Source: Saccharothrix carnea (GTDB lineage: Bacteria > Actinomycetota > Actinomycetes > Mycobacteriales > Pseudonocardiaceae). From it: 64,000 nt of DNA. Positions 18,166-33,000 of this stretch are shown in pieces. Positions within the stretch are counted from its first letter, which is position 1. Each line of letters opens with the position of its first letter. The notes beneath the pieces were generated by a model, which was not told the DNA's origin, searched no databases, and saw nothing but the letters and a program-made list of their open reading frames with translations. Both the position numbers and the translations under genes were made by a program. The DNA is taken from assembly GCF_003014735.1 (NCBI RefSeq), contig NZ_PYAX01000026.1, positions 1-64,000 of the forward strand, written 5' to 3'.

Positions 18166-20543
18166 GGCAGCCCGAACAGCTGGAACGCGGCCCAGTAGAA
18201 CGGGTGCGCGGTGGCCGGATCGGAGCGCACGGCCCGCTGTGCGTGGCGCAGTGCGCCGGCTGGACCGGCTTCGGCCGACACCTCGTGGAAGTGGGCCATG
18301 AGTCGTGCGGTCACCCGGTCGTCCACCTGCCACAGCGGACCGAGGACGGCACGCGCGCCGGAGACGAGGAAGACGCCGGGCAGGCCGACGTACTCGTTGC
18401 CGGGCAACGCTTTCGACAGTCCGGCGTGGCAGGCGGCGAGCACGACGAGGCGTGCCCGCAGGCTCAGGCGCACCAGATCGGGTGCCCACAGCAGCTCCCG
18501 CTCGCTCCCGGTACCGGCGACGTGCAGCGCCGACAGGTCCGGGAACTCGTCGAACGCGATGCCGTGCGACGCGATGTGGACCACGTCGGCGTCGGACAGG
18601 TCGGCGCGGAAGTCCTCGACGTCGATGCCCGCGCCGGTCTCGACGGTCCGGTCGTAGAACCGGCTCGCCGCGTCCGCCAGCTCCCCGGCGGCGTGCGGCA
18701 GGCTGCCGTCCGGGTCGCCGATGCCGACGAACCGCTCGACCCGCCGGGGCACGTGCGGCCGGGTGAGCAGGTGGTCCAGGACGGACAGGCTCGGCACGTA
18801 CGACACGAGGTGGTCCGTGTCGAGCGGTCGGTCGCCCAGCGCGCCGAGCGGCACGCCCCACAAGGGCTCGTTCGGCACCACCAGGACCCGGCGGTGGCCG
18901 GCGACGGTCGCACGGACCGGGTCGACGCACGCCGCTTCGAGGTCCGCCGCTGGCTCCGCCGGGTCACCGTCGTCGTGGTCCGGGGTCGAGGCGAGCCGCC
19001 GGTAGTCGGCGCACCAGCGCTCGACAGCCCCGGTGTCGAAGTCGGCGACCCTGGTGACACCGCCCCGGGTGACCGCGTAGACCACCCCGATCGGTGCGTA
19101 CACCAGCACGACGTCATCCTCGCCGAGGTGCTCGGCCAGCCGGGTGGCCGGGACCGGCGGCTCGGCCCGGCGCGCGGCCGACGCCGTAACCAGTACCTGG
19201 TGCTCGGCGGCGGCCAGCGCTTCGCGGAGGCGGTGCAGCGCGGTGTCCAACTGCTGTCGTTCACCGGTGCCGCCGCGTTCGGCGTCGGTCAGGTACCTGA
19301 CCGCCTGCCGCCGGTAGAGGTTCGGCAGGACGAGCAGGTCGGCACCGGCGTCGCGCCACAGGCGGTGCGTCGTCAATCGGGCGAGCTGGCTCCGGCTGGT
19401 GTTGAGCTCCACCAGGTCGAGTGCTTCGGTCGGCGTGCCGGCGCGGTCGGCGGTGACGGCGGCGAGGTGGTGCAGCGGTGCGAACGAAACGGACAGCGCG
19501 AGGTGCGACACCTCGGTCACCACGGACCGGCGGCGTTGCTCGGCCAGCAGCACGGCGCGCCGCAGGCGGTCGGCGGCCTCCTCGGGCCGGTCCCGTTTGA
19601 GCGCCAGGATGGCCGCGAGGAACTGGTCCACGGCGGTGTCGTCGGTCGTCTCGGGCACTACCGCGTCGTCGATGAACGCGAGCTTGCGGGCGCACTCGTC
19701 GCGCCAGTGCGCCTGCGCTTGCGGCTCGGCGCCGACCAGGTGGATCGAGTCGACGCACCACTGCAGCGCGGCGCGTCCCTCCTCCGGATCGGTGAACATC
19801 AGCCTGGCGCCGCGGACGTACTCGCGCAGCCACGTCGCGAGGTCGGCGTCCAGTTCGGCGAGCAGCCCGCGGTAGTGGTCGGACCGCGCGCTGCGGGGTG
19901 CCACGACGTCGGAGTCGATGGCGAGGACGGTGAGGGCGTGGCGCAGCTTGGCGCGGTCACCCGCCTTGCGGTACGCCGCGGCGGCTTTCGTCGCGTGGAC
20001 CAGGGCCGCCGCCGTGTCGCCGGTCGCCCGGTCGCCCCGCACCGCCTCCCAGAGCAGCATCTCGGTGTCGGCCGCGAGCGCGTGCCACCCCCGCTCGTGC
20101 ATCGGGGTGACCGCCCGCTTCAGGTAGGCCACGGCCTCGTCGAGCCGGCCGAGGCCGAGCAGGATGGTCCCCTCCCGCCAGTCCATCGCCACCTGGTCCG
20201 TGCCCAATTGCGACTTGTCGATGCCGGGGAAGGAGTCCTGCGACCACTCGGCCGGCACGGTCCGCCGCACGGCGTCGACCCCGCGCAGCCGGCAGTCCCG
20301 CAGCACGCGGCGGAGGCGTTCGAGCCAGCGCCGTTCCCCGGCGAGCGGAGGCTCGTCGCGTTCCCGCGCTGCTACCTGTGCGATCAGGCCGCTGAGCACT
20401 TCCTCCGCCTCGACGCCCAGCAGCACGGGCCGCTGCTCCACCAGGTCGAACAGGGCGTCCGCGTCCGCCGGCGGGTCGCGCAGGAGGTCCAGCACGGCCC
20501 GCACCGCCATCGGTTCCTGGAGTGCCGGCTCGGACTGCGTCAA
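18162..20543 (-). CDS. CHAT caspase-like protease, module A
   Basis: 793 aa. A helical TPR-like N-terminus (about 1-520) precedes a CHAT domain with catalytic His in 'VVHIASHG' (His660) and Cys in 'VVLAACHAG' (Cys705), ending 'FYWAAFQLFGLP'. It is the first gene of the four-gene minus operon. The start is either TTG 20543 (GGAG 6 bp upstream) or ATG 20510 (AGGA 4 bp upstream); the two differ by 11 residues. The tandem paralogue in module B shares the whole layout. In known systems CHAT proteases are zymogen-like and are activated by protein partners, so the trigger may come through partner A. Confidence 0.87.
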   Translation of the reverse strand: MTQSEPALQEPMAVRAVLDLLRDPPADADALFDLVEQRPVLLGVEAEEVLSGLIAQVAARERDEPPLAGERRWLERLRRVLRDCRLRGVDAVRRTVPAEWSQDSFPGIDKSQLGTDQVAMDWREGTILLGLGRLDEAVAYLKRAVTPMHERGWHALAADTEMLLWEAVRGDRATGDTAAALVHATKAAAAYRKAGDRAKLRHALTVLAIDSDVVAPRSARSDHYRGLLAELDADLATWLREYVRGARLMFTDPEEGRAALQWCVDSIHLVGAEPQAQAHWRDECARKLAFIDDAVVPETTDDTAVDQFLAAILALKRDRPEEAADRLRRAVLLAEQRRRSVVTEVSHLALSVSFAPLHHLAAVTADRAGTPTEALDLVELNTSRSQLARLTTHRLWRDAGADLLVLPNLYRRQAVRYLTDAERGGTGERQQLDTALHRLREALAAAEHQVLVTASAARRAEPPVPATRLAEHLGEDDVVLVYAPIGVVYAVTRGGVTRVADFDTGAVERWCADYRRLASTPDHDDGDPAEPAADLEAACVDPVRATVAGHRRVLVVPNEPLWGVPLGALGDRPLDTDHLVSYVPSLSVLDHLLTRPHVPRRVERFVGIGDPDGSLPHAAGELADAASRFYDRTVETGAGIDVEDFRADLSDADVVHIASHGIAFDEFPDLSALHVAGTGSERELLWAPDLVRLSLRARLVVLAACHAGLSKALPGNEYVGLPGVFLVSGARAVLGPLWQVDDRVTARLMAHFHEVSAEAGPAGALRHAQRAVRSDPATAHPFYWAAFQLFGLP

Positions 20544-20677
20544 CCACTACTCCGAGGAATGTCCGCAATGGAGAAAAACGCTTCGCCGCGACCATACCGG
20601 GCGGTGCAGGCGGTGTTCCCGCAGAAAGCGGGCCTGCCGCAGCGGTCCCGGGCGGTGCACGATGGCCAGTCTGTCGG

Positions 20678-21088
20678 GTGACATCGGCACCGGCGATCGA
20701 GGAGTGGGGCCACGCCGTGCTCAAGCCGCGGCGCGGCTGCTTCGGCCGGGGCGTGCTGTTCATCGACAACTTCACCGCGCTGCGGGACGTCGTCGGCTAC
20801 CTCGACGCGGAACGCGGCGGTGGCGCGGTCGAGTACCGGGACGTGCCCGCCACGCACGCCGCGCTCGCACTCCGCGCGCAACAGGTGTTCGGCCTGCCGC
20901 TGCTCGGCCTCGACATCATCCGCCACGAAGGCGAGCCGATCGTGGTGGACGTCAACACCGGTCCCGCGCTCTACCCGGAGCTGTTCGCCGCGGCGGGCCG
21001 GTCCCTGCCGCACGAACTGCACCGCGTGTTCACCGCCGCGATCGGCGAGGTCGCCGGTCAGCCGGTGCGGGCCAGCGGCATCAGGTAG
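20678..21088 (+). pseudogene. ATP-grasp protein remnant (internally deleted)
   Basis: The frame from GTG 20678 encodes 136 aa. It begins with an ATP-grasp lysine strand ('AVLKPRRGCFGRGVLFIDNF') and ends with the metal-binding strand ('GLPLLGLDIIRHEGEPIVVDVNTGPAL'). In intact RimK-type ATP-grasp enzymes about 80 residues, including the glycine-rich loop and the adenine-binding strand, lie between these parts. Here they are joined directly near 20815-20826 ('DAERGGGAVEYRDVP'). The N-terminal pre-ATP-grasp domain is also missing. It is probably a decayed relic, perhaps of a peptide ligase or RiPP enzyme; a short expressed protein is not excluded. Its 3' end overlaps the convergent thiopeptide gene by 31 bp. 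Confidence 0.6.
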
Positions 21089-22596
21089 ACCAGCGCGTCG
21101 TCCACGCCGTCCAGGCACAGCACGTCGTGCGCCAGGTCGTCGTAGAAGCCGCCGATCAGGCCCAGCGCCAACCCCGACGACGCGGCGACCAGCGCGAGGT
21201 TCTGCGCCAGGTGCCCCGCCTCGGTGAACGCCAGCCGCAGCGCTCGCAGGCCGTAGACCTCCCGCAGCGCGCCGACCCGCGCGTAGAGCGCCAGCACCGC
21301 GGGCGTCGTGGCCGGGTCCACCCGGTCCTCGCCGTCGCCGAACCACATAGAAGTCGCCCGCACGTCGTCCACCGGTGGCGCGGGCGCGACGTGCACCAGC
21401 GTCCGCCGCACCTCGTCCACTTCGTACACACCCGGTTCCAGGCCGGCCACCCGCCACGCCACCAGCCGCAGCCGGGCGCTGTGCCGCGCACCGGCACTCG
21501 GGTAGGGCCTGCGGCCGTCCGGCAGGGCGCCTTGCGCGGTCCACAGCAGAGTGGCCAGCCGCGCGGCGTCGAGCGGGCCGGACAGCTCCGCACCCCGCGC
21601 GGTGTGCCGGGTGCGCAGCGCGTCGGCCAGGGCGTCGGGCACGGGCGCGACCTCGGGCAGCGGCACGTCCGGCCACCACGGCGGTGTCGTCGACGGTGTC
21701 ACCCCGACCTTGCGCGGACCCTGGTCCGGCACGCCCGGCTGGAACCTGCTGGCCGCCAGGTAGCGCCGGTCGGGTGCGGTCGCGCCGTCCTCGTGGAACG
21801 GCGTCGGCCCGTCCGGCGCTTCGGCCGTCATCGCCACCAGCCGGCAGGCGGTGCGCTCCTCCTCGGGGCCCAGGCCGAGGCGGTTGAACAGCATGTGCAG
21901 CTGCGAAGCCCAGGCGTAACGCGGCAGGTCGGCCGCCCGGACCCGGTCCGCCCAGTAGGCCACCACGCCCGTGGCGTGCGTTTCGAGCCGGTCCCACCGG
22001 GCGGCGAGGCGGGTCGCGCGTGCCTCGTGCAGCGTCCGCGCGGCGATGTGGGAGCCGAGCCCGGGCGGTGCGACGGGCTCGCGCGCCTGCCGCCACCCCG
22101 TCGCCAGCGAACGCAGCCACGACGCCGCCTCCACCCGGTCCATCCCGAGCGCGATCGTCGTGGCCATCACCAGCTCCACGGCCGCGGTGAACTTCGCCGC
22201 GCGCGCGGACCGCAGCACGGCCACCGCGACCTCGGTGCCCCGGCAGAACACCTCCTCGGCGACCGGCAGCGACTCCGGGCCGCCGTACCGCCGCACCTCC
22301 GGCTCGTACGGCGTCTCCCGGACGTCACCGTGCGGCAGCCAACCGTCCGCCGCCGCCTCCACCGGGTGATCGGCCGCCGCCACGAGCGAGCGCAACCGAC
22401 CGGCGAGGTCCACCCCCGCGTCACGCACCCGGACGCGCAGGTGCGGCCCGGCCTCCCAGTACCGCACGTAGAACCAGTCGGCGACCCGTCCCGCCGCGCG
22501 GTGCCCGTCCAGCTCGGGCGCGAGGACGTCGGCGAGGAACGCGTCGACGTCCTCGACCGACCACGACAGCCGCACGTGCAGGCTGGTCCACGTCAT
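21058..22596 (-). CDS. LazF-like fusion: split-LanB domain + SagB-type dehydrogenase
   Basis: 512 aa. The N-terminal ~270 residues match the thiopeptide-type/LanB C-terminal domain ('SLHVRLSWSVEDVDAFLADVL', 'WFYVRYWEAGPHLRVRV', 'LHMLFNRLGLGPEEE'). The C-terminal ~240 match SagB/McbC flavin-dependent azoline oxidases ('RRPYPSAGARHSARL', 'LAFTEAGHLAQNLALVAASSGLALGLIGGFYDD'). The same bifunctional organisation is known from LazF of lactazole biosynthesis, where it combines glutamate elimination from dehydrated Ser with azoline oxidation. ATG 22596 overlaps the upstream stop (ATGA). It is the last gene of the thiopeptide operon and is convergent with the ATP-grasp relic. Confidence 0.82.
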   Translation of the reverse strand: MTWTSLHVRLSWSVEDVDAFLADVLAPELDGHRAAGRVADWFYVRYWEAGPHLRVRVRDAGVDLAGRLRSLVAAADHPVEAAADGWLPHGDVRETPYEPEVRRYGGPESLPVAEEVFCRGTEVAVAVLRSARAAKFTAAVELVMATTIALGMDRVEAASWLRSLATGWRQAREPVAPPGLGSHIAARTLHEARATRLAARWDRLETHATGVVAYWADRVRAADLPRYAWASQLHMLFNRLGLGPEEERTACRLVAMTAEAPDGPTPFHEDGATAPDRRYLAASRFQPGVPDQGPRKVGVTPSTTPPWWPDVPLPEVAPVPDALADALRTRHTARGAELSGPLDAARLATLLWTAQGALPDGRRPYPSAGARHSARLRLVAWRVAGLEPGVYEVDEVRRTLVHVAPAPPVDDVRATSMWFGDGEDRVDPATTPAVLALYARVGALREVYGLRALRLAFTEAGHLAQNLALVAASSGLALGLIGGFYDDLAHDVLCLDGVDDALVYLMPLARTG

Positions 22597-23687
22597 GGCG
22601 TCTCCAGTGGGGTGAGGTCGTAGGTGAAGCCCGCGCCACGCGGGCGGCCGACCAGCAGCAGGTAGAGCAACGCGTGCGACGCGGGCGCGCCGACCAGGGC
22701 CTCCAGCGGGCCGTCGTCGGTGCTGCGCGCGGGTCGGCAGAACGCACCGGTCTCCGCCGCGGCCGTGCCGACGTGCTGCGCGACGGCACCCGCCGCGCGC
22801 AGCAGGGCCCGGTAGCCGTCCGGACCGCCGGACGCCACCGCGGCGGCCGGGTCGCCGGTCGTCACCAGGGCGAGGTTCATCGAGGCGACGTGGATCGTGC
22901 CGGGCGGGTGCCCGAACACCGGTCGCAGCCCCGGCACCGCCGGTCCGGGCGCCACCGGCCGCAGACCGCCGTCCACCGCGTACCAGCCGTCGGCGACGCC
23001 CTCCACGTTCCGCACGGCCAACCGGTGCCGCAGGTCGTCGCGCACGGGCGACCCGGCGGGCGGGTGGTCGACGGCGTCGACCACGGCGTGCAGCACGCGC
23101 CGGGGCAGTGGCCGGGGATCGGCCGCGATGCCGCGCGGACCCACTCCCGAACTGCGCCGTGCGACGGGGCGCGGGTCAGTGGCGCCGTCGAACGTGACGG
23201 TGACGGTCGACCCGGACACCCTGGCGCTCATGCCCCGCCGTGCCGCGTGCTCGACCAACGCCGCCGCGACGTGTCCCACCTCCAGCTCGGTGAGCACGTC
23301 ACCGAACTCGCGGTAGCCGGGGGAGAGGCGGTCGCGCCGGCGGACCAGCTCGACCCGCACCGGCCCGTCGACCACCGGCGTGCCCGCACCGACCAGCGCG
23401 CGCCGCACCGGGTCGAGCAGCCACCGCCCCTCGACGACCAGGTCGACGGTGGCCGCCGCCCGTGCCGAGGGGTACGCCCGGTGGTCGTTGTACTGGTTCC
23501 ACGGCTCCCACCGCAGCGGTGTCGCCACGTCGGTCAGCAGCCGCGCCAGCGCCGTGCCGAAGCGTCCCCGCAACGCCGTCAGCGGCACGTGCGGCCCGAC
23601 CGGCGCCGGTGTGCGCGGTGACGCACCCGGCTCGACCACCCGGCCCGGCCCGTGGGTGTACGCGGCGCGCAGGGCGTCGGCGTTCAC
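22593..23687 (-). CDS. Second SagB/nitroreductase-like RiPP protein
   Basis: 364 aa, GTG 23687 overlapping the YcaO stop (GTGA). It starts with a helical N-terminal part ('RGRFGTALARLLTDVATPLRWEPWNQYNDHRAYPSARAAATVDLVVEG') and ends in a nitroreductase-like half ('GTIHVASMNLALVTTGDP', 'YRALLRAAGAVAQHVGTAAAETGAFCRP...LEALVGAPASHALLYLLLVGRP'). This fits the McbC/SagB-like dehydrogenase superfamily, but FMN-binding residues are less clear than in the fused protein at 21058. Lactazole-type clusters need only the fused oxidase, so this extra copy may be a partner subunit, a second oxidase for the Cys-rich tail, or a degenerate paralogue. Confidence 0.7.
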   Translation of the reverse strand: MNADALRAAYTHGPGRVVEPGASPRTPAPVGPHVPLTALRGRFGTALARLLTDVATPLRWEPWNQYNDHRAYPSARAAATVDLVVEGRWLLDPVRRALVGAGTPVVDGPVRVELVRRRDRLSPGYREFGDVLTELEVGHVAAALVEHAARRGMSARVSGSTVTVTFDGATDPRPVARRSSGVGPRGIAADPRPLPRRVLHAVVDAVDHPPAGSPVRDDLRHRLAVRNVEGVADGWYAVDGGLRPVAPGPAVPGLRPVFGHPPGTIHVASMNLALVTTGDPAAAVASGGPDGYRALLRAAGAVAQHVGTAAAETGAFCRPARSTDDGPLEALVGAPASHALLYLLLVGRPRGAGFTYDLTPLETP

Positions 23688-25354
23688 GGGAACGGGTGGG
23701 GCAGCGGGGTACCGGCCGGGCGCAGTCGCGGCAGGCCGTGCGTGCGCCGGTTCAGCTCGCCGAACGTCATCGGCACCGTGCCGGGCACGATCACCTTCGC
23801 CGAGTGCAGGCCGAGCCGGTCGCGCACCACCGGGTCGCTCTGGTCGACCGCGATCACCTCCAGCCCGAGCGCCGCCCACGCGCGCACGTAGTGCTCCAGC
23901 ACCGCGTCCAGGTCGTCCCGGGGCACGTCCGGCACCCGCGGGTCCGCTTCCGGACCGGGTACCAGGAAGTCGTACCGCCCGGCGGCCTCGGCCAGGCCGT
24001 TGACGTTGACGTGGTCGTCCATGCCGCGGATCAGCCGCGGTTCGCGCAACAGCCGCCGCAGCCGGTCCGGGTCGTAGTCGTCCGGGTCGACGCGGTAGCG
24101 CTTGGCGCCCGCCTCCACGTCCATCGCCACCTCGGCCGCCGCCGACCGCATCGCCGCGTCCGGGTCGAGCCCGGCGCCCGCGGCGAAGAACGCGTGCGGT
24201 CGCTTCGGGGAGCGCGCGAGCGACAGCACCGACGGCACGCCCAGGTCGTTCGTGGCGTCGTAGAGCTCCAACCGGTAGCCGAGCTGCTCCAGCCGGTCCG
24301 CGAGGTGTGTCGTGACGTCGTCGCGCACGCGCAGGGTGGGCAGCGGCGTGCGCTGGTACCAGGCCATCAGGAACGCGTCCCGTTCGGCGACCTCGAACAG
24401 CCCGTACAGCACGGCTTCGGTGAGGCTGTTGCCGGTGCCGCACCCGTTGGACGTCTCGTCCACGAACCGCGCGCCCTCGCCGTGCCCCCAGTACGCCACG
24501 TGTTCCGGCACCAGCACCGGACGTCCGTGCGTGTAGGACCAGCCATGCACCCACCGGGTCGGTACGTCCGGGCGGTACGGAACGACGTGCGGCGACTCGT
24601 GGTCGGGCAGGCCGAGCCGCGTCGGGTCGAGCGCCCGGTCGCCGAGCTCGGCGAACGACGCCTCCACGACGGTGGTGACGCGCCGGGGCCGCAGGCCCGC
24701 GTGCCGTTCCACGGCTTCGTACAGCGCGACCCGTTCGGCCTCGGCGTAGTCGGCGGTGCGGCCGAACCCGGCCTGCCCACCGCCCAGCTCCGCGCTCACC
24801 GCCGCCACGGTCAGGTCGCCGATGCGGTGCAGGCCGCCGACCGGGCCGTGCCTGAGGTCGAACAGCTCGCGGTGCAGGGCGTCGCCCGCGGTGAGCGGGT
24901 TCGGTCCGCGCAGCGTGCCGGGCACCACCGCGACCGGTTCGCGGACCACCGCCTCCGGTGCGTCGTCGGGCAGCGGCCCGCACGTCGCACAGCCACCGGA
25001 CCGCGGCCGGACGCGGTGCTCGCCCACCGTCGCCAGGTCGGTCCGCAGCGCCAAGACCTTGTCGCGGTACGCCTCCGGGTCGGCCAGCACGCGCTCCACC
25101 AGCACCGCCACCAACGGCCGTAACGCCGCCGACGCCAGGCCGCCCAACCCCATCCGCCGGTCGTCGCGCGGCACGGACGGGCCGAGCGTCGCCAGCCGCG
25201 CGTCCTCGGCGCACGCCACGCACACCCCGTCCGACACCGGGCCGATCAGCACCAGCGCACCGTCGAACCGCACCGGCAGCACGGGGCCGTCCGCGCCGAC
25301 GCCGTCCAGGTCGCCGATCGCGTAGTCGGCCAGCTCCACCACCCGCACGGTCAC
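23684..25354 (-). CDS. YcaO cyclodehydratase (azoline-forming)
   Basis: 556 aa, GTG 25354 overlapping the previous stop. YcaO domain from about residue 170: 'AVSAELGGGQAGFGRTADYAEAERVALYEAVERHA' and 'SNGCGTGNSLTEAVLYGLFEVAERDAF' give the ATP/Mg-binding residues. 'DAAMRSAAAEVAMD' continues the active site, and the C-terminus ends in a Pro-rich 'PLPHPFP' tail, typical of RiPP YcaO enzymes. The N-terminal extension holds two CxxC pairs (Cys45/48 and Cys122/125) that could form a zinc site. It activates peptide amides with ATP to cyclise Cys (and perhaps Ser/Thr) to azolines, working with the ThiF-like partner encoded immediately upstream. Confidence 0.92.
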   Translation of the reverse strand: MTVRVVELADYAIGDLDGVGADGPVLPVRFDGALVLIGPVSDGVCVACAEDARLATLGPSVPRDDRRMGLGGLASAALRPLVAVLVERVLADPEAYRDKVLALRTDLATVGEHRVRPRSGGCATCGPLPDDAPEAVVREPVAVVPGTLRGPNPLTAGDALHRELFDLRHGPVGGLHRIGDLTVAAVSAELGGGQAGFGRTADYAEAERVALYEAVERHAGLRPRRVTTVVEASFAELGDRALDPTRLGLPDHESPHVVPYRPDVPTRWVHGWSYTHGRPVLVPEHVAYWGHGEGARFVDETSNGCGTGNSLTEAVLYGLFEVAERDAFLMAWYQRTPLPTLRVRDDVTTHLADRLEQLGYRLELYDATNDLGVPSVLSLARSPKRPHAFFAAGAGLDPDAAMRSAAAEVAMDVEAGAKRYRVDPDDYDPDRLRRLLREPRLIRGMDDHVNVNGLAEAAGRYDFLVPGPEADPRVPDVPRDDLDAVLEHYVRAWAALGLEVIAVDQSDPVVRDRLGLHSAKVIVPGTVPMTFGELNRRTHGLPRLRPAGTPLPHPFP

Positions 25355-26898
25355 CGCCCGCCTTCCGCCACCGCGAACGCCACCAGACCCGCCGCCTCCA
25401 GCACCGGGCCGAGGGGCACGGACTTGACGTCCGCGCCGAGCGCCCGCAGGTCGTCCTGGAACGCCTCCTCGCCGTCACGCAGCCCGTACGGCCAGTGCCA
25501 GTCCCGGTTCGTCCACGGCGCGGCGGCGCCATCGGGCTCGGCGAACGGCGCGGCGCCGCACAGCACCACGGTGTCTGCCACCCCGGCTTGCGCCCGCCCG
25601 GCGGCGGCCATCGCGGCGAACGCGACCGCGTCCGCCGGTGACGCCTCCACCGCCCAGGACAGCTCCTCGCCGTCCGCCCGCACCACCGCCCGGACCACGC
25701 CCGGACCGAGCCGGGTCACCTCGGCCGAAGCGGGCAGGGCGAACCGCAGCGCCACGGCCTTCCACCACCGCCGGGCGGTCGGGTCGGCGGCCCACTCGTC
25801 CTCGGTGACCGGGGTACCGGCCAGGTGCCGGACCGCCGTGCGCAAGGCCGAGCCGAGCGCGTGCACGCGATCCGCCCCGAGCACCACGTCGTCCGGTGCG
25901 AGCGCACGCGCGGCGCGGAGCAGGGCGTCGAGCCGGGCGGCGTGCTCGGTCGTGCCGAAGCCGACCACGTCACCGGCCGCGGCCAGCTTCACCGGCAACT
26001 GCGGCAGGTCACCGGGCAACGGCGTGGGCACCGGGCCCAGCTCGCGGTTGCCCAACACCTCCAGCAGGGTGCCGTTCGGCTCCCTCGGCCGCACCTCCGA
26101 CAGCCACGGGTGGTACTCGGCGTGCAGCGGGTCGAGCCGCGCCACCAGGACGGGCTGGTGCGGCGGCCCGGTCGGGGGCACGTCGCTCCACATGTCCACG
26201 ACCTCCGTGGCCGGATCGGGCAGTCCGCCCACCGCGCACACCAGCCGGTGCGCCGCGGCCGACCCGACGAGCGCGGCCAGCACCTCCGGCGGCGTGCCCG
26301 GGGCACCGGCCAACCGCCGCGCCACCGCCGCCGCGTCGGCCTCCACCTCCGCCACCGCACCCGGCGCGACCGCGAAACCGACGTCCGCCGCGCACCCGGC
26401 CGCGACCGCGGCCCCGCCACCCGCCACCAGCAGCCCGGGACCGGGCCGGACGGGCGCGACCGCCAGACCCGCCGCGACCAGCGCCCGGTGGGCGTGCGCG
26501 GCCAACGCGCCATCACCGGTCACGACCACCGTCACCGAGCGCAGCCGCCGCCACGCCTCGAGCGGTGACGGGGCGACCGACTCCAGCCAGCTCGCGATCT
26601 CCGCGGGCGGCGCGTCCTCACCCCACTCGCCGGGCACCTCCACCAGCATGTCGTGCTCGCGCAGCTGGCCGATGAGCAGCTCCAGCGCCCGCGCCACCGC
26701 AGGCGGGGCGTTGTCCGGCACGGCCAACTGCTCCGGCGGGACGCCTTCGGCGAGCGGACCGGCCAGGCGTTCCCAGATCGTCCACAGGCCCTTGCCGCCG
26801 TCGAGGGTGAAGCTGGACCGCCAACCCCGCACGTGCAGACCGGTCGCGGTGGGCGTCGCGTGCACGATCGGCCGCAGCCGCACCGAGTTCGGGCTCAT
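25351..26898 (-). CDS. Ocin-ThiF-like cyclodehydratase partner (LazD/TbtF type)
   Basis: 515 aa, ATG 26898 overlapping the previous stop (ATGA). The N-terminal ~90 residues ('VRLRPIVHATPTATGLHVRGWRSSFTLDG..GLWTIWERL') look like the RiPP recognition element that binds the leader peptide. The middle has a Rossmann-like, E1/ThiF-related part ('SVTVVVTGDGALAAHAHRALVAAG') without an adenylation site. The C-terminal part ('TNRDWHWPYGLRDGEEAFQDDLRALG') is typical of this family in thiopeptide clusters. Known relatives present the precursor to YcaO and raise its activity. Position directly before the YcaO gene supports this role. Confidence 0.83.
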   Translation of the reverse strand: MSPNSVRLRPIVHATPTATGLHVRGWRSSFTLDGGKGLWTIWERLAGPLAEGVPPEQLAVPDNAPPAVARALELLIGQLREHDMLVEVPGEWGEDAPPAEIASWLESVAPSPLEAWRRLRSVTVVVTGDGALAAHAHRALVAAGLAVAPVRPGPGLLVAGGGAAVAAGCAADVGFAVAPGAVAEVEADAAAVARRLAGAPGTPPEVLAALVGSAAAHRLVCAVGGLPDPATEVVDMWSDVPPTGPPHQPVLVARLDPLHAEYHPWLSEVRPREPNGTLLEVLGNRELGPVPTPLPGDLPQLPVKLAAAGDVVGFGTTEHAARLDALLRAARALAPDDVVLGADRVHALGSALRTAVRHLAGTPVTEDEWAADPTARRWWKAVALRFALPASAEVTRLGPGVVRAVVRADGEELSWAVEASPADAVAFAAMAAAGRAQAGVADTVVLCGAAPFAEPDGAAAPWTNRDWHWPYGLRDGEEAFQDDLRALGADVKSVPLGPVLEAAGLVAFAVAEGGR

Positions 26899-27968
26899 CG
26901 GGTCACCTTCACCATCTGCTGGACGTGCTCGGGCCACTCGACGCCGGTGATCCGCGGCACCGCCCGCACGACCAGGCTCGCCGCGAGGTAGCGCTCGACC
27001 GGCGTCACGTCGCACACCGCCAGCAGCCGGTAGAGCATGTTGGTCCCGAACCGGTAGACGGTGACGGGCCGCTGGTAGTCCGGGTGGTCGAAGTCCACTT
27101 CGCGCAACCTGGCGTGGTAGTCGCTGATCCGGTCGGCGTGGTCGCGGTGCCAGCGCCGGATCGCCTCGTCCTCGCCCATCTCCAGCGCGCGTTCGCCGAG
27201 GTGCGTCGAGTAGGCGGTGGGCAGCTCGCCGCGGTCGAACACCTCCTCGACCACCGCGCGCGTGCCGTCCGTCCACGCCGTCCACGGCGTGACGATCGCG
27301 CCCTCGGCGACACGCCGCACGGTCGCCACCACCTGGTCGGCGTTGCGCTCCCACACCCCGTCGAACCGCCGGCGCAGCACGCCATCGGGATCGCTGTGCA
27401 GCAGGAACCCTTCCAGGTGCGACAGGAACGAGTGGTAGCCGTTCACCAGTCCCGCCGGGAACCGGCTCGCGTGCGCCGTCATCGCGACCATCGCGAGCCG
27501 CACGCGCGACTGGCTGGTGCCGTCCGCGGCCACGGCGCCCCGGACCGCGGGCACACCCAGCCGCAGGCACCGGGCGCGCAGGTCCACCAGCACATCGGAT
27601 CCCAGCAGTTCCCGCAGGACCGTCAGGTCGGTCGGCTCGACGACCACGGTGTTGTCCGGGTGGATCGGCTCGTACGGCGGCGGCACCAGCTCGGCGATCC
27701 CGTTCTGCCGCGACTGCGCCAGCAGCACGGTGTGCGCTATGTCCACTGTGGACGGGTGGGCCGCGAGGTGTGTGCGCAGCCGTGCGGCGACGAGCTCCGC
27801 CGCCTCCTCCGAGCCGAGTCGCACCCGCAGGTGCGGCCCGTGCAACCAGTGCCGCTCCACGTGCCCGGCCGCGCCACCGCGCTCCGCCTCCGCCAGCGCG
27901 GGCAGCACGGCGTCGCGGAGCAACGGCGCCTTCACCGGGTCGTGGTAGTAGCAGACGACGTCGGTCAC
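26895..27968 (-). CDS. Thiopeptide-type LanB-C-like enzyme, probable [4+2] pyridine synthase
   Basis: 357 aa, GTG 27968 overlapping the dehydratase stop (GTGA). It belongs to the thiopeptide-type domain family ('CYYHDPVKAPLLRDAVLPAL', 'HWLHGPHLRVRL', 'YHSFLSHLEGFLLHSDPDG', 'FGTNMLYRLLAVCDVTPVERYL'). Members either eliminate glutamate from glutamylated Ser/Thr or catalyse the formal [4+2] cycloaddition that makes the pyridine of thiopeptides. An elimination-type domain is already present in the fusion at 21058, and the gene order matches lazB-lazC, so pyridine synthase is the better guess. A homologue occurs at 47935-49056. Confidence 0.75.
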   Translation of the reverse strand: MTDVVCYYHDPVKAPLLRDAVLPALAEAERGGAAGHVERHWLHGPHLRVRLGSEEAAELVAARLRTHLAAHPSTVDIAHTVLLAQSRQNGIAELVPPPYEPIHPDNTVVVEPTDLTVLRELLGSDVLVDLRARCLRLGVPAVRGAVAADGTSQSRVRLAMVAMTAHASRFPAGLVNGYHSFLSHLEGFLLHSDPDGVLRRRFDGVWERNADQVVATVRRVAEGAIVTPWTAWTDGTRAVVEEVFDRGELPTAYSTHLGERALEMGEDEAIRRWHRDHADRISDYHARLREVDFDHPDYQRPVTVYRFGTNMLYRLLAVCDVTPVERYLAASLVVRAVPRITGVEWPEHVQQMVKVTR

Positions 27969-30367
27969 GATGCCCTCCAGTACGTTTCCGCGATCAGTTC
28001 GACCACCCGGCCGCCGGCGCCGGGCACGGGCAGCGCCTCGGTCAGCCGCACGCCGTCGGGGAACCGCGCCAGCAGACGCGGCAGGCAGCGCAGGTGCAAC
28101 GGGTCGCCCAAGTCGACGTACTGCGGCTTGCCCGCGGTGAGCGCCCGTTGGTAGGCGTCGACCGACACCGGACCCCGGTCCGGCCCGACGAAGACGTGCT
28201 CCGGCAGCCCGTGCCGGGCCCGCAACCGCGCCACGTCGAGCCCCGCCCGTTCCTCCGCGCCGACCTCGGGCGGCACGGCGAAGTCCCAGGAACGGCGCGC
28301 CAGCACGATGTCCCCGTACGTCAGCCGCCCCTGGGAGGTCACCTCGCCGTCCGCGGTGGCGGTGCGCAGCCGGTCGAGGTCCACCCACCCGCAGGCGAGG
28401 TCGGAGTACAGCGCCACCTGCCGGTCCGGCAACGCCAACGGGATCAGGAAACCCAGATACAGCACGTCGAGCGGGACACCGCCGTGCGTCACGCGCACCT
28501 CGTCGGTCACCGGGTCGTGCCGCACGTCCAGCTCGTCGGCCGCCAGGTCGGCCCACCGGGCGTCCTCGCCGACCTCCCGCGCGCCGAGCAACGGGTGGAG
28601 GTTGGCGTTGAAGCCCTGGACCGGCCGGAACTGCACCGGATCCGTGGTGTGGCGGCGCACCTGGCGGGTCACCGCGTCCCGCGCGCCGGGCAGCAGGTCC
28701 AGGAACCGGCTGGTGAACTTGCCGAACCCGGCGTACACGCGGTTGACCACGAGCCGCCCGTCGTGCGTCGGCTGGGCGAAGAAGCCGTACGAGCCGGTGC
28801 GGCGGGTCGCCCACGCGGGCAGCAGATCGGCGGCGGACGCCAGCACGTCGTCGGTCACCACGCCGTCGCGCACCTGCCCGGCGAGCTTGTCGCGGGTCTC
28901 GACCACCGCGCGGACGTCGGGATCGTCCACGCGGTCGGTGTCCATGGAGTCCTGCCACGCTTGGGACAGCGGCCCGGAGCAGTCGGCGAGCGTGGCGACA
29001 CCGCCCACGCCGAACCGCTCGACGAACCTGGTCCGGATCAGCCGGCGCAGCAGCACGTGCTGGTCGAACGCCACCAGCAACGGCGTGAGGCGGGTCAAGG
29101 CGGGCACGGCACCCGGCGGCACGGGCACCGGCTCGGGCAGCACCACGTCCTCGACCACCGGGGTCACGCCGGTCAGGTCCGCGCCGACCCGCTCACCGAG
29201 GTCACGCCACCCGGCGGAGAGCCGCGCGAGGACGGCGGCACGGGTGGGCGGGTCCGCGGTGGCGAACGAGGCGGTGGTCGTGGCGAGCTCCCGCAACCGG
29301 CGGGCGGTGTCACCGTCTGTCGGCGCGAGCCAGGAGGCCAGCGAGCCCACCGCGTCCGGGTCCTGCGGGTGGATCGGGGACACCGGCACCAGCAGGCCCA
29401 GTTCCCGGGTCTTGGCCACGAACGGCGCCGCGCCCTCCGGCTTGCCCAGCTTCGCCGCCAACGCCGCCACGATCCGGTCCGGTGCCAGCCCGTCCGGCCC
29501 GGCGGCCCGCAGCACCTCGACGACGAACCGCAGCGGCCGTGTCGCCGCGACGTCCACCTCTTCCTCCCGCACCACCGCGGCCCGGCCGACACCTCCGACC
29601 GGCACGTCCCGGCGGAACAGCAAGCGCCCGTCCCGTTCCCGCAACCCCGGCGCGAGGCGGTGCGGCAGCGCGGGACCCAGGGCGTCGACCAACCGCGTCA
29701 CCAGCAGCCGGTGCACCGCCGGGTGCGACACCGGCTCGGCCGCCGGCCACGGCCCGTCACCCCACGCGCCCCAGCCGACGTGCGTGTACCAGGACAGGGG
29801 ACTGGTCTTGGCGGTCGCCCGCAACGCGTACCGGAGCACGGTCGGTTCCGCCTTGCGCGCCTTGCGGTCCGGCTCACCCCGGCCGCGCGCGGTGCGGTCC
29901 ACGCCGTGCAACAGGTCCGGGCCGGTCAGCACGCTCGCCCGGCGCAGCGCGTCGGTCGCGCACACCTCCGCGAGCCACCGGCGCGCGGCGGCCAGGTCGT
30001 GCGGCCACGCCGCCAGCACCGCGTCCACCGCCCGTGCCCGTTCCTCGTGCGCCGCCAACCACCGCGCCAGCAACGGCACCCGTTCGGGCAAGCCGCCGAA
30101 GTCTCCGGGACGCGGCGGCCGACCGTTGTGCACGTCACGGCGCAGCGGCAGCACGACCCTGTGGTGGAACGCGGGGGAGTGGCCGCCCGCGCTGTCGTGC
30201 AGGGCGTCGGCGAGGTCGGGTGCCAGCGCGGCGATCCGGGCCTCGGCCGCGACCACGGCGTCCAGCCCGGTCCGCACGCCCGAGGGTGCCGGCCGGGGGT
30301 GCGCCAGCGCGGCCACCCGGACCAGCGCGTACGGCGCGAGTTCGGTGGTGATGCGGTCACTGGCCAT
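27965..30367 (-). CDS. Lantibiotic dehydratase N-terminal protein (tRNA-Glu-dependent glutamylation)
   Basis: 800 aa, the size of stand-alone LanB N-terminal proteins (TbtB/LazB). Family features: 'FHHRVVLPLRRDVHNGRPPRP', 'LRYALRATAKTSPLSWYTHVGWG', 'GSYGFFAQPTHDGRLVVNRVYAGFGKFTSRFLDLLP', 'FNANLHPLLGAREVGED' and 'SQGRLTYGDIVLARRSWDF'. Such enzymes transfer glutamate from Glu-tRNA to Ser/Thr of the core peptide; a separate domain then eliminates it to give Dha/Dhb. ATG 30367 is the first enzyme start of the operon, 63 bp after the precursor stop and just past a strong stem-loop. Its stop overlaps the next start (GTGA). Confidence 0.9.
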   Translation of the reverse strand: MASDRITTELAPYALVRVAALAHPRPAPSGVRTGLDAVVAAEARIAALAPDLADALHDSAGGHSPAFHHRVVLPLRRDVHNGRPPRPGDFGGLPERVPLLARWLAAHEERARAVDAVLAAWPHDLAAARRWLAEVCATDALRRASVLTGPDLLHGVDRTARGRGEPDRKARKAEPTVLRYALRATAKTSPLSWYTHVGWGAWGDGPWPAAEPVSHPAVHRLLVTRLVDALGPALPHRLAPGLRERDGRLLFRRDVPVGGVGRAAVVREEEVDVAATRPLRFVVEVLRAAGPDGLAPDRIVAALAAKLGKPEGAAPFVAKTRELGLLVPVSPIHPQDPDAVGSLASWLAPTDGDTARRLRELATTTASFATADPPTRAAVLARLSAGWRDLGERVGADLTGVTPVVEDVVLPEPVPVPPGAVPALTRLTPLLVAFDQHVLLRRLIRTRFVERFGVGGVATLADCSGPLSQAWQDSMDTDRVDDPDVRAVVETRDKLAGQVRDGVVTDDVLASAADLLPAWATRRTGSYGFFAQPTHDGRLVVNRVYAGFGKFTSRFLDLLPGARDAVTRQVRRHTTDPVQFRPVQGFNANLHPLLGAREVGEDARWADLAADELDVRHDPVTDEVRVTHGGVPLDVLYLGFLIPLALPDRQVALYSDLACGWVDLDRLRTATADGEVTSQGRLTYGDIVLARRSWDFAVPPEVGAEERAGLDVARLRARHGLPEHVFVGPDRGPVSVDAYQRALTAGKPQYVDLGDPLHLRCLPRLLARFPDGVRLTEALPVPGAGGRVVELIAETYWRAS

Positions 30368-30387
30368 CCGGTGCTCCCGTGGTGTGG

Positions 30388-30419
30388 GCCGGGAGCGCCC
30401 ACGCGTGGACGCTCCCGGC
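30388..30419 (-). terminator. Stem-loop between precursor and dehydratase genes (attenuator-like)
   Basis: GCCGGGAGCG (30388-30397) pairs perfectly with CGCTCCCGGC (30410-30419). It lies between the precursor stop (30431) and the dehydratase start (30367). RiPP operons often have such a partial terminator or RNA-stabilising hairpin after the precursor, so that precursor mRNA exceeds enzyme mRNA. Confidence 0.65.
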
Positions 30420-30430
30420 TCCGGTCGGAC

Positions 30431-30601
30431 TCAGCCCAGGGTCGTCGGCAGCTGCGGCTGCTGGCAGCAACAGCACGAGGTGCCGCTGCACGAGCACGCC
30501 GCCGCCGAGGCGCCGGTCTCCGGCAGCGCCACCGCGTCACGCATCGCGGTCACGGCCAGGTCGCCCAGGTCGAGTTCCGAGTCGTCGAAGGTCAGGTCCA
30601 T
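30431..30601 (-). CDS. Thiopeptide precursor peptide, lactazole-like
   Basis: 56 aa. The acidic leader (about residues 1-31, 'MDLTFDDSELDLGDLAVTAM' then 'RDAVALPETGA') strongly resembles the LazA leader end, which as recalled reads '..RDTVALPENGAS'. The core begins at Ser32: SAAACSCSGTSCCCC, then a Q-Q-P-Q-L-P-T-T-L-G tail. By alignment to lactazole, Ser32 (core 1) and Ser42 (core 11, followed by Cys43) are the likely [4+2] partners. Cys36/38 would be in-ring thiazoles, and Cys43-46 would give up to four consecutive thiazoles. ATG 30601 is preceded by GGAAGGA about 9 bp upstream. The gene is first in the operon with the six modifying-enzyme genes. Confidence 0.88.
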   Translation of the reverse strand: MDLTFDDSELDLGDLAVTAMRDAVALPETGASAAACSCSGTSCCCCQQPQLPTTLG

Positions 30602-30936
30602 CGGGTCACGTCCTTCCTGCTCCAGTGCGGCGGCACCGGGATCGGCGCGCCGCGTCGGGTGGTGCCGCCGGCCCGCCCGGGATCGGCACCGACCCGTCGC
30701 GGCGACCGGCGACCCGCGACGCGCTCGGCGTTGCGGATCCCCGAATCGGGATGCGGCGGGACCATCGGGTGCCTCCCCGCGGTGCGGGTGGCGAACCGCA
30801 CGCTCTCACCTGCCGGTATACGTCCGGTATGCGTTGCGCCGTCCGGTGGTTCGCGGCGTTCGGCGTACCGCCGGGCACTTCTGGCCTCGACATACCGTGG
30901 GCGGTGACCGAGGGGTTCGAGGTGGGGAGATCCGGG
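30602..30936. other. Divergent promoter region between precursor and SARP genes
   Basis: 335 bp without a convincing gene. It must hold the promoters for the thiopeptide operon (minus) and for the SARP gene (plus). It contains the heptamer repeats at 30813-30830 and a TACCGT (-10-like) at 30893-30898 on the plus strand, 5 bp before GTG 30904. The minus-strand open frame 30592-30801 has no homology signature and is not called. Confidence 0.6.
30813..30830. promoter_or_regulatory. Direct heptamer repeat, probable SARP binding site
   Basis: CCGGTAT occurs at 30813-30819 and again at 30824-30830, a period of exactly 11 bp (one helical turn). This is the hallmark of SARP/OmpR-type activator sites. 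It sits upstream of the precursor gene and beside the SARP gene, so the SARP is the obvious candidate ligand. No clear -10 element was found at the expected 8 bp downstream on the minus strand. Confidence 0.55.
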
Positions 30937-31722
30937 GTGTCGATCCGTTCGACGTCGCTGGTGCAGCGGGAAGTCGACATCCGACTGTTGGGCGGGCCCG
31001 CCGTGAGCGGGCCGAGGGCGACCGACGTGGTGCCCGGAGGGGTGAAGTCGCGGACGTTGCTGGCCGCGCTGGCACTGGACGCCGGTTCGGCCGTGTCCAT
31101 CGAACGCCTGATGGACTACCTGTGGGAGCGCGAGCCACCGCGCAGCGCGCTCAAGAACCTCCAGCTGTACGCGTCACGCCTGCGCCGTTGCCTGGACGCG
31201 GCGAACACCGGCTTCTCCCGCCTGCTGGTCCACGTCGGCCACGGCTACCGGCTGGACGTGCCCGCGCAGGCCGTGGACGTGTTGCGCGCGGGCGGTTCGC
31301 TGCGCGACGGCGTGGCGGCGCTGCGCCGGGGCGAGCCGCGGTACGCCGTCGTCGCGTTGACCGAGGCGCTGTCGGGGTGGCCGGTCGACGGCCTGGCCGG
31401 GCTGGTGCCGTCGGGTCCGGCCACTGCGGCGGCGGCGTTGTGGCGGGAACGCCGGATCACCGCCGTGGAGCACCTCGCGACGGCGAAGGTCGAGCTGGGC
31501 GCGTGGGAGGAGGCGGCGGACCTCCTGGCGTCGCACGCGTCCGCCCACCCGACCCGTGAACCGTCGCAGGTGCTGCTGATGCGCGCGTTGGCGCACCTGG
31601 GTGACCGGGTGGGCGCGATCGCCGTCTACCGCAGGCTGTGGCGGGTGCTGGACGCGGACCTGGGCATCCGGCCCGGTGGCGAAGCGCGTGCGGTGTTCGA
31701 GGGGTTGCTGGGCAACGCCTAG
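30937..31722 (+). CDS. SARP-family transcriptional activator (BTAD)
   Basis: About 261 aa. The N-terminal OmpR-type winged HTH ('VDIRLLGGPAVSG...VKSRTLLAALALDAGSAVSIERLMDYLWEREPPRSALKNLQLYASRLRR') is followed by a bacterial transcriptional activation domain ('RRITAVEHLATAKVELGAWEEAADLLASHASAHPTREPSQVLLMRALAHLGDRVGAIAVYRRLWRVL'). GTG 30937 has GGGGAG 7 bp upstream; GTG 30904 behind a TACCGT -10 is a leaderless alternative. It is divergent from the thiopeptide operon with a matching repeat in between, so it is most likely the cluster-specific activator. Its stop overlaps the convergent ROK gene stop. Confidence 0.85.
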   Translation: MSIRSTSLVQREVDIRLLGGPAVSGPRATDVVPGGVKSRTLLAALALDAGSAVSIERLMDYLWEREPPRSALKNLQLYASRLRRCLDAANTGFSRLLVHVGHGYRLDVPAQAVDVLRAGGSLRDGVAALRRGEPRYAVVALTEALSGWPVDGLAGLVPSGPATAAAALWRERRITAVEHLATAKVELGAWEEAADLLASHASAHPTREPSQVLLMRALAHLGDRVGAIAVYRRLWRVLDADLGIRPGGEARAVFEGLLGNA

Positions 31723-32885
31723 CGCCGCCGGTCGAGTTGCGGCCGCTCGGAGATGGCGCCGGTGATCGTGGCCTTGATCGCGAGCGCGGCGCCGGACCGG
31801 GCCCACTCGGTGAAGTCGAACGGCCGCGCGTCGAGGTCGATCAGGTCGGGGTCGTCCTCGTAGGTGTCCTCGATGCCGTCGTGCACGAGTTCGGACGACA
31901 CCTCGTACAGCGGCAGGCCCTCGCCGGTCAGCAGGACCTTCTGCGGGTCGATGACGTTGGCGACGGTGCCGATGAGGACACCGAGCGCGTAACCGGCCTC
32001 GGCGAACACCTGCCCGGCCTCCCGGTCGCCCGCGCGGACCCGGTCCAGGGCCTCCTCGTAGGTCGGCCGCCCCGCCAACCGCCGCAGCATCACCTGCGTC
32101 ATCAGGTAGCTGGAGATGCAGCCGCGCCGCCCGCAGCCGCACTGCGGGCCCTTGGCGTCGACCAGCGTGTGGCTGAAGTGCGGCGGCAGCCCGTGCGAGC
32201 CCGCGACCAGCCGCCCGTCCACGATCAGCCCGGTGCCGACGCCCGCGCCGACGGTGATCACTGCCAGCGACCTCAGGCCCGCGCCCGGGCCGAACCAGTG
32301 CTGTGCCGCGGTCAGCGCCTGCACGTCGTTGTCGACCGCGGTGGGCACGCCGGTCGCCCGCGTCACCGCCGCCTTGAGCGGCACGTCGGTCCAGCGCAGG
32401 AACTCGTCCCACGCGACCAGGCCGTCGAGCACGACACCGCCCAGCGTCACCCCGATGCCCGTGACGCCGGGGAACCGCCGGGCGACGTCGGCGATCTGGG
32501 CGACGACTTCCTCCGGTGCACAGGAGCGCAGCGGCTCCTCGGCCGCCGCGACGGGGGTGGCGGTCAGGTCGGTGACCGCGGCGAAGAGCCGTTCGGGGGT
32601 CAGCTTCACGCCGAGGAACCGGTGGGCCGCGCCACGCACGTGCAGCATCTCCGATGGGCGGCCGGCCGAGGAACGCGGTCTGGTGTCGCCTTCGACCAGC
32701 AATCCCCGCTGCACCAACGCCTTGGCCACGCGGGTCAGGGTCGGCCGGGACAGCCGCAGGCGGCCGGCGATCTCGGCCCGGGACAGCGGACCGTGGATCA
32801 GCACCTCCAGCAGGACGTCGCGCGGTACCTCGCTCAGCTTCGGCCAGGAGGAGGTGGCGACACCGGTGTCCGCTTCGGAGATCAC
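31719..32885 (-). CDS. ROK-family transcriptional regulator
   Basis: About 388 aa. N-terminal winged HTH ('VPRDVLLEVLIHGPLSRAEIAGRLRLSRPTLTRVAKALVQRGLLVEG') and a ROK sugar-kinase-like domain with 'DNDVQALTAAQHWFG', 'VGAGVGTGLIVDGRLVAGSHGLPP' and the Cys-rich ROK signature 'CGCGRRGCISSYL'. GTG 32885 is chosen because a TATGTT -10 (32892-32897, minus strand) ends 6 bp upstream, giving a leaderless transcript. A CebR-like box overlaps the -35 position, implying repression or autoregulation. It is divergent from the secreted mannanase, which suggests control of polysaccharide use. The sugar ligand is unknown. Confidence 0.85.
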   Translation of the reverse strand: MISEADTGVATSSWPKLSEVPRDVLLEVLIHGPLSRAEIAGRLRLSRPTLTRVAKALVQRGLLVEGDTRPRSSAGRPSEMLHVRGAAHRFLGVKLTPERLFAAVTDLTATPVAAAEEPLRSCAPEEVVAQIADVARRFPGVTGIGVTLGGVVLDGLVAWDEFLRWTDVPLKAAVTRATGVPTAVDNDVQALTAAQHWFGPGAGLRSLAVITVGAGVGTGLIVDGRLVAGSHGLPPHFSHTLVDAKGPQCGCGRRGCISSYLMTQVMLRRLAGRPTYEEALDRVRAGDREAGQVFAEAGYALGVLIGTVANVIDPQKVLLTGEGLPLYEVSSELVHDGIEDTYEDDPDLIDLDARPFDFTEWARSGAALAIKATITGAISERPQLDRRR

Positions 32886-32891
32886 GGCTCG

Positions 32892-32920
32892 AACATAGCG
32901 GCGTTCTGGGATCGCTCCCA
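32892..32920 (-). promoter_or_regulatory. ROK gene promoter with CebR/CelR-like box
   Basis: On the minus strand, TATGTT (32897-32892) serves as -10 for the leaderless ROK gene. TGGGATCGCTCCCA (32907-32920) covers the -35 region. It differs at one base from the known CebR/CelR operator TGGGAGCGCTCCCA, so binding would block RNA polymerase. Confidence 0.65.
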
Positions 32921-32971
32921 GTCCTAGGCCCATCGGAGGATTACCCACTGCAATGTTGCGCAACTCGGATC

Positions 32972-33000
32972 TTGACGGCCGGGGGCCTCGACCGTAGCGT
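32972..33000 (+). promoter_or_regulatory. Sigma-70-type promoter for the mannanase gene
   Basis: TTGACG (32972-32977), a 17-bp spacer, and TAGCGT (32995-33000) make a canonical HrdB/SigA-type promoter on the plus strand. Transcription from about 33007 would give a 120-nt leader that contains the operator at 33068-33081. Confidence 0.6.

Follow-up and report, generated by a model that had tools for sequence, protein, structure and literature searches.

A lactazole-type thiopeptide operon in Saccharothrix carnea with four adjacent core cysteines and a second dehydrogenase-like protein

Lactazole-like thiopeptides are an already known kind of peptide. According to PMC7210931, lactazole-like clusters made up 251 of the 508 thiopeptide clusters in a 2018 survey, and in 2020 the laz cluster of Streptomyces lactacystinaeus (lactazole A; MIBiG BGC0000606 in the same source) was the only characterised member, with a natural role described as unknown. 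The same source reports that Ser1 and Ser12 of LazA form the pyridine, that Cys5, Cys7 and Cys13 become thiazoles and that Ser11 becomes an oxazole. Low-similarity lactazole-like clusters were also described in a survey of Lentzea (PMC9120177). Here we analysed the first 64,000 nucleotides of contig NZ_PYAX01000026.1 of Saccharothrix carnea (hereafter the window), in which a precursor gene (gene A) heads a lactazole-type operon on the minus strand. The product predicted for this soil actinobacterium is a lactazole-like macrocyclic peptide rich in sulfur. The best explanation of the whole, which we consider fairly probable, is a lactazole-type thiopeptide with a 29-membered ring closed between Ser1 and Ser11, an additional protein (X) that would act on the cysteine run, and a hairpin behind gene A that probably provides precursor excess.

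The precursor gene and its operon

Gene A (30431..30601, minus strand) encodes a 56-amino-acid peptide followed by a stop codon, MDLTFDDSELDLGDLAVTAMRDAVALPETGASAAACSCSGTSCCCCQQPQLPTTLG, with the leader in residues 1-31 and the core in residues 32-56. A sequence-only reading of the window had placed a 56-amino-acid open reading frame here with the strand unstated; the frame was confirmed on the minus strand, while the same frame of the plus strand at 30431-30601 showed open read-through and no comparable peptide. Gene A is homologous to lactazole-type precursors, and scored above the cut-off with two curated models, Pfam PF19409 Thiopep_pre (46.2 bits, cut-off 23.5) and NCBIfam NF033400 (57.7 bits, cut-off 30), so routine annotation would list it and the description of the precursor as hidden does not hold. 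Over 12 genomes, 26 of 47 codons varied in sequence and only 4 in amino acid, giving a ratio of non-synonymous to synonymous polymorphism (pN/pS) of 0.070, with pN of 0.006 in the leader and 0.040 in the core. Gene A is therefore under strong purifying selection, with an intact frame in all 12. The two model matches, the low pN/pS, a purine-rich ribosome-binding site (GGA..GGAC) on the 5' side and the adjoining enzyme genes together indicated that gene A is more than a chance reading frame.

The core, SAAACSCSGTSCCCCQQPQLPTTLG (30434..30508, minus), begins with Ser1 (30506-30508), continues with AAACSCSGT at positions 2-10, and contains Ser11 (30476-30478) followed by four adjacent cysteines, Cys12-15 (30464-30475), for a total of six Cys; the 10-residue tail QQPQLPTTLG comes after them. 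Both the run of four cysteines and the tail were thus as the sequence-only reading had given them. The 15-residue core SAAACSCSGTSCCCC was printed nowhere in a full-text search of CC0, CC BY and CC BY-SA papers, in which a single unrelated match was to a shorter string only; this agrees with the claim that no known product has this core, although the 2018 survey of 508 clusters may list it. The precursor itself is not unique. In a family-level search 33 of 390 genomes matched, counting the window's own, and within the Saccharothrix group matches were found in 16 of the 25 listed genus genomes, and the Ser1-Ser11 type in 12 of the 25, of which 3 carry exactly this 15-residue core.

The leader ends in VALPETGAS, an ending also found at L101 and L102, relatives with lactazole-type cores, and the precursor family and leader end are those of lactazole. 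On the minus strand the order is A, hairpin, B, C, D, E, X, F, with a SARP regulator gene diverging from them. As in laz, the dehydratase is split and the YcaO protein apparently so, F is a LazF-type fusion, and the gene order is A-B-C-D-E-F; the order described in PMC7210931 is matched except for X and the regulator. The proposed leader and complete enzyme set thus stood, with all laz-type enzymes downstream on the same strand, but the set holds a sixth protein, X, between E and F, where laz has five modifying enzymes. Genes A, B, C, D, E, X and F and the SARP gene were kept, with the operon intact, in 12 orthologous loci.

Judged by homology, the cluster is a lactazole-type thiopeptide operon with homologues of LazB, LazC, LazE and LazF and a putative LazD counterpart. 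B (27965..30367, minus) resembles LazB, the part of a split LanB dehydratase that carries out tRNA-Glu-dependent glutamylation (PF04738, 69.8 bits, cut-off 28). C (26895..27968, minus) is a LazC-like pyridine synthase homologue, matching NF045556 over model positions 6-353 of 354 (151.9 bits, E 2.5e-44). D (25351..26898, minus) occupies the LazD position, a place conserved in relatives. E (23684..25354, minus) is a LazE-like YcaO cyclodehydratase homologue with an N-terminal TOMM leader-binding-type region (PF02624, 261 bits), which also exceeded the cut-offs of TIGR03604 (253.4 bits, cut-off 219.25) and TIGR03882 (43.5 bits). F (21058..22596, minus) is one 512-amino-acid LazF-like protein, in which a glutamate-elimination domain (PF14028, 126 bits, cut-off 24.4; TIGR03891, 94.5 bits) is fused to a dehydrogenase domain dependent on flavin mononucleotide (PF00881, 41.9 bits, cut-off 23.5).

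Protein X and runs of adjacent cysteines

X (22593..23687, minus) is a predicted 364-amino-acid tandem nitroreductase-fold protein between E and F, and is absent from laz. It is related to stand-alone proteins of the tandem nitroreductase-like kind encoded in other thiopeptide clusters (L105, L135-L138), dehydrogenase candidates which we take to be of the TbtE type, and shares their fold, their motifs and their place between E and F. X is shortened, at about 364 residues against frames of 483-597, and unlike them has F as a neighbour, which bears a second, fused dehydrogenase domain. The motifs N.HR.YPS.R, SG..P.G and RP.R were common to the long relatives and the aligned X rows. The operon thus encodes two azoline-dehydrogenase-like proteins, X and the dehydrogenase domain of F. 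Since X reaches the cut-off of no curated family model, we do not file it as a proven nitroreductase-fold azoline dehydrogenase.

The presence of X was then compared with the occurrence of adjacent cysteines at 54 loci with an E protein above 500 bits, where a close X was a match of at least 400 bits and a distant X one of at least 80 bits. Nine of 63 loci were left out (L061, L100, L108, L114, L117, L119, L121, L122 and L127), L127 with CCC and X, L100 with CCC and no X, and the others cut or distant. A close X was present at 24 loci with CC or a longer run and missing at 7 such loci, and it was found at none of the 23 loci without adjacent Cys; all 21 loci with CCC or longer carried it. When distant X was counted too, at the 47 loci with a fused F, the numbers were 25 with and 4 without X for CC or longer, and 0 with and 18 without for no adjacent Cys. 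X was not found in two lactazole-core genomes, and in a 397-genome sample of the order no close X was seen outside genus g1, G513, G670 and G699, with weaker matches in G452 and G536. On this pattern we propose that X helps to oxidise runs of thiazolines. The pairing of X with Cys runs was not met in the literature consulted, in which no search was aimed at it.

Several observations weigh against this role. X reached only 14.1 bits with PF00881 (cut-off 23.5) and matched nothing in NCBIfam up to E 1; as it is also much shorter than the related proteins, it may lack activity. A serious, if less favoured, possibility is accordingly that X is a pseudo-enzyme or a partner subunit, stabilising for example F or the D/E complex, with no dehydrogenase activity of its own. 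In its favour, the first half of X has HRAYPSA-R where F has the PSAG-like stretch RPYPSAG, the second half has no such stretch, and an Acg homologue was among the fold matches; the retention of the long relatives' motifs in the aligned X rows, and of X itself at every one of the CCC-or-longer loci, argues against it.

We give about the same weight to the explanation that X and the Cys run were simply inherited jointly within a single clade and are functionally unrelated. On the tree of E, close X amounts to about two independent changes and only two independent pairs, so the sign test (p 0.5-1) cannot reach 0.05. A Cys pair also occurs with no close X at seven loci (the reverse cluster of L046, L105, L115, L118, L120, L123 and L124); three of these carry a distant, longer relative, and the four fused-F loci L046 reverse, L115, L118 and L120 have no X of any kind. 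L125 has a distant X relative and a second dehydrogenase-like domain, yet no adjacent Cys, and the left-out locus L100 has a CCC core without X, while also lacking B, D, E and F in its 20 kb. Joint descent is less easily reconciled with Lentzea, which is nested inside the X-bearing clade, has CSSC in place of CCCC, and has lost X genome-wide in 10 of 10 genomes, nor with the absence of any close X at loci without adjacent Cys.

Ring closure and the sister cores

Our reading of ring closure starts from the alignment with LazA. Cys5 and Cys7 take the thiazole positions of lactazole and residue 2 is unmodifiable in both, but the window core is one residue shorter ahead of the Ser-Cys junction. 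This would make Thr10 the (methyl)oxazole, where lactazole has Ser11 as the azole, and Ser11 the ring serine. With the rule 3n-4, the Ser1-Ser11 ring is predicted to be 29-membered, against 32 for Ser1-Ser12 of lactazole, and the window core has no Ser at position 12. Four adjacent cysteines, which could give a tetrathiazole, follow the ring-closing Ser in place of the single one of lactazole. For the window core with its complete tail, 7 azoles, dehydroalanine at positions 6 and 8 and Ser1/Ser11 in the pyridine, the calculated mass is M = 2171.678 ([M+H]+ 2172.685, [M+2H]2+ 1086.846), to which each Ser left unchanged would add 18.01 and the lack of the Thr10 azole 20.03. In a check of the mass calculation, the 16-residue lactazole core implied by the alanine scan in PMC7210931 gave 701.203 against 701.20.

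Conservation pointed to the same pair. Ser11 and Cys12-15 were invariant over the 12 orthologues, in 9 of which Ser9 replaces Gly9 and some of which have Gln3 or Thr2, while the tail drifted in sequence and length; precursor S42 was invariant over 14 aligned family members. A Ser before the Cys run was likewise kept in sister cores, and Ser1/Ser11, the partners favoured by the sequence-only reading, is thus the best-supported pyridine pair.

Closure between Ser1 and Ser6 instead, at the C5-S6-C7 motif, would leave a long azole tail on a 14-membered ring of pyritide size. In favour of Ser6, the second Ser of other thiopeptides usually lies between two azoles, in an azole-dehydroalanine-azole arrangement. 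The Laz enzymes are also reported to make 14-membered rings, at low efficiency. We regard this closure as unlikely, for lactazole, which is described as having its C5-S6-C7 at identical positions, nonetheless uses Ser12 for closure, and the sister cores without C-S-C (the first cores of L049 and L092) retain a Ser immediately before the Cys run, as do all 12 orthologues.

The predicted Ser1-Ser11 ring is not a new size. Its spacing and ring size are those of GE2270, the thiomuracins, GE37468, the amythiamicins and baringolin, an established 29-membered class according to PMC3917276, and novelty in ring size is not supported. In the EF-Tu-binding 29-membered group a ring Asn is described as very preserved (PMC3917276). 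The window core has no Asn in its ring and its F is of the laz-type fused form, unlike that group, so there is no reason to expect the target of the EF-Tu group, and an EF-Tu-type target predicted from ring size was rejected. The cyclothiazomycin core also has Ser1 and Ser11, and the Cys-rich stretch after the ring-closing Ser resembles that of cyclothiazomycin. Cyclothiazomycin is named a polythiazole-containing peptide in a title among the references of PMC3917276. The pyritides of Micromonospora rosaria (PMC9247985) likewise close a ring by a pyridine from two Ser; as described there, their two precursors lack Cys and their cluster lacks azole-forming genes, whereas the window has six core Cys and a YcaO protein.

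In sister cores the Ser before the Cys run lies at position 8 (L045, L049), 9 (L045, L095), 10 (L048, L049, L092, L100) or 13 (L047, L059), for which closure with Ser1 predicts 20-, 23-, 26- and 35-membered rings. Because the known thiopeptide rings were all 26- to 35-membered as of 2020 (PMC7210931) and the natural pyritide rings are 14- and 17-membered (PMC9247985), the 20- and 23-membered rings, provided that closure follows the assumed pattern, would be natural sizes not known before. For several sister cores the assumption is weaker, as they carry Gly rather than an azole residue ahead of the ring Ser.

The hairpin, the proposed pathway and related loci

Between the stop codon of A and the start of B lies a GC-rich hairpin of 14 bp (30388..30419, minus). 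The spacer folded at -38.3 kcal/mol (z -2.97; 3 of 200 shuffles as stable), and at all 12 orthologous loci a strong hairpin with compensatory changes was predicted in the corresponding spacer. In the alignment 96.4% of 168 cells pair, reached by 0 of 500 shuffles, and 4 of the 14 pairs have changed on both sides, reached by 4 of 500; the measure of further pair types was equalled by 135 of 500 and gave no support. Rfam models found nothing at gathering scores over 18000-33000, and a scan of 30300-31000 for sigma-70 promoters and T-run terminators was also empty. As the hairpin has no T-run, we do not call it an intrinsic terminator; it likely ends or protects the precursor message, leaving precursor in excess over the enzymes.

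Each step of the proposed pathway is modelled, by homology, on the reconstituted Laz enzymes. Leader binding and the conversion of the six Cys, and probably of Thr10, to azolines would fall to D and E. Oxidation of these azolines to azoles would be the work of the dehydrogenase activity of F and, as proposed, of X, which would be required chiefly for the Cys12-15 tetrathiazole. Dehydroalanine (Dha) would be formed from Ser1, Ser11 and probably Ser6 and Ser8 by B together with the N-terminal half of F, and C would join Dha1 and Dha11 into the pyridine while the leader leaves as its amide. The product would consist of a 29-membered ring and a polythiazole tail, followed by a Q/P/L/T end that stays unmodified and drifts fast in sequence, and the hairpin would probably keep the precursor message above the enzyme message.

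Further points speak against this pathway as a whole. C lies below the NF045556 equivalog cut-off of 325 set for TbtD/PbtD, so its score shows homology only, and D reached no family cut-off, with a weak ThiF match of 12.3 bits. The Laz enzymes are reported to require Ser10, two places before the ring-closing Ser (PMC7210931), and 3 of 12 orthologues, including the window, have Gly9 at the corresponding position; the C enzyme here should therefore have looser substrate needs than LazC, and these orthologues would be a natural exception to that need. That the cluster has fallen silent or decayed and yields no compound is improbable: lactazole itself has been called cryptic and without antibacterial activity, and no transporter, resistance gene or leader-processing enzyme was seen among the genes assigned here, but the precursor frame and the operon have been maintained across the orthologous loci.

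A broader and more tentative proposal, which we judge possible but somewhat doubtful, is that the lactazole-type clusters at these loci belong to one lineage equipped with two azoline dehydrogenases, the one fused in F and a shortened X specific for adjacent thiazolines. X would there serve a tri- or tetrathiazole arm on pyridine macrocycles closed from Ser1 to Ser8, 9, 10, 11 or 13, whose size would have changed one residue at a time in evolution, from 20 to 35 members; the natural 20- and 23-membered rings among them would lie between the pyritides (14 and 17) and the known thiopeptides (26-35). The established cell-free system allows a direct test on these clusters of whether thiazole runs need a second dehydrogenase, and the clusters offer a natural ring-size series from related enzymes that is useful for macrocycle engineering.

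The SARP-type regulator gene (30976..31722, plus; PF03704 99.5 bits, PF00486 34.5 bits) has a frame open from 30379 and a start codon that is not fixed; its position was kept in the 12 orthologous loci. A CHAT-domain gene just downstream of F (18162-20543, minus; PF12770, 169.7 bits) was rejected as a cluster member, being found in the window only among 62 stretches, of which only some extend far enough past F, the orthologous loci that do being L093, L094 and L096-L099.

Besides X and the hairpin, a second lactazole-type cluster in the same genome (L092; contig G000:C25, 48000-67999) went beyond the sequence-only account. It has B, C, D, E, X and F, two precursors with cores SGGSCCGGSSCCCCPNPM and SGGSCSGGSSCCCSVQPPDPTF, predicted to be 26-membered, and a third precursor-like frame without VALPE that ends in ..AVPASCSCCSVETRA. 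L106 (G058, same genus) has laz-type B, D, E, X and F and two precursor-like frames ending in ASCSCCSRPTQG and ASCSCCSQPTQA; no pyridine synthase was found in its 20 kb, and its product is possibly a linear azole/dehydroalanine peptide derived from a thiopeptide pathway. In L045 (Saccharothrix obliqua) five tandem precursors (9953-10938), with predicted 20- and 23-membered rings, precede one enzyme set. In L046 (Streptosporangium pseudovulgare) two thiopeptide clusters lie next to each other in divergent orientation; X and three precursors with CCC or CC belong to the forward cluster, and the reverse one has a CC core and no X. Partial laz-type loci were L095 (G077), without B, and L100 (G070), with only a precursor and C in 20 kb; since each of these genomes also has a complete cluster at another locus, sharing of enzymes in trans is conceivable. 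L105, L114/L138, L117 and L136 carry another precursor type, with leader end VALPEMGAS and cores of the form ..CCSSSSSSS..CC, and stand-alone X-like dehydrogenases were present at L105, L138 and L136.
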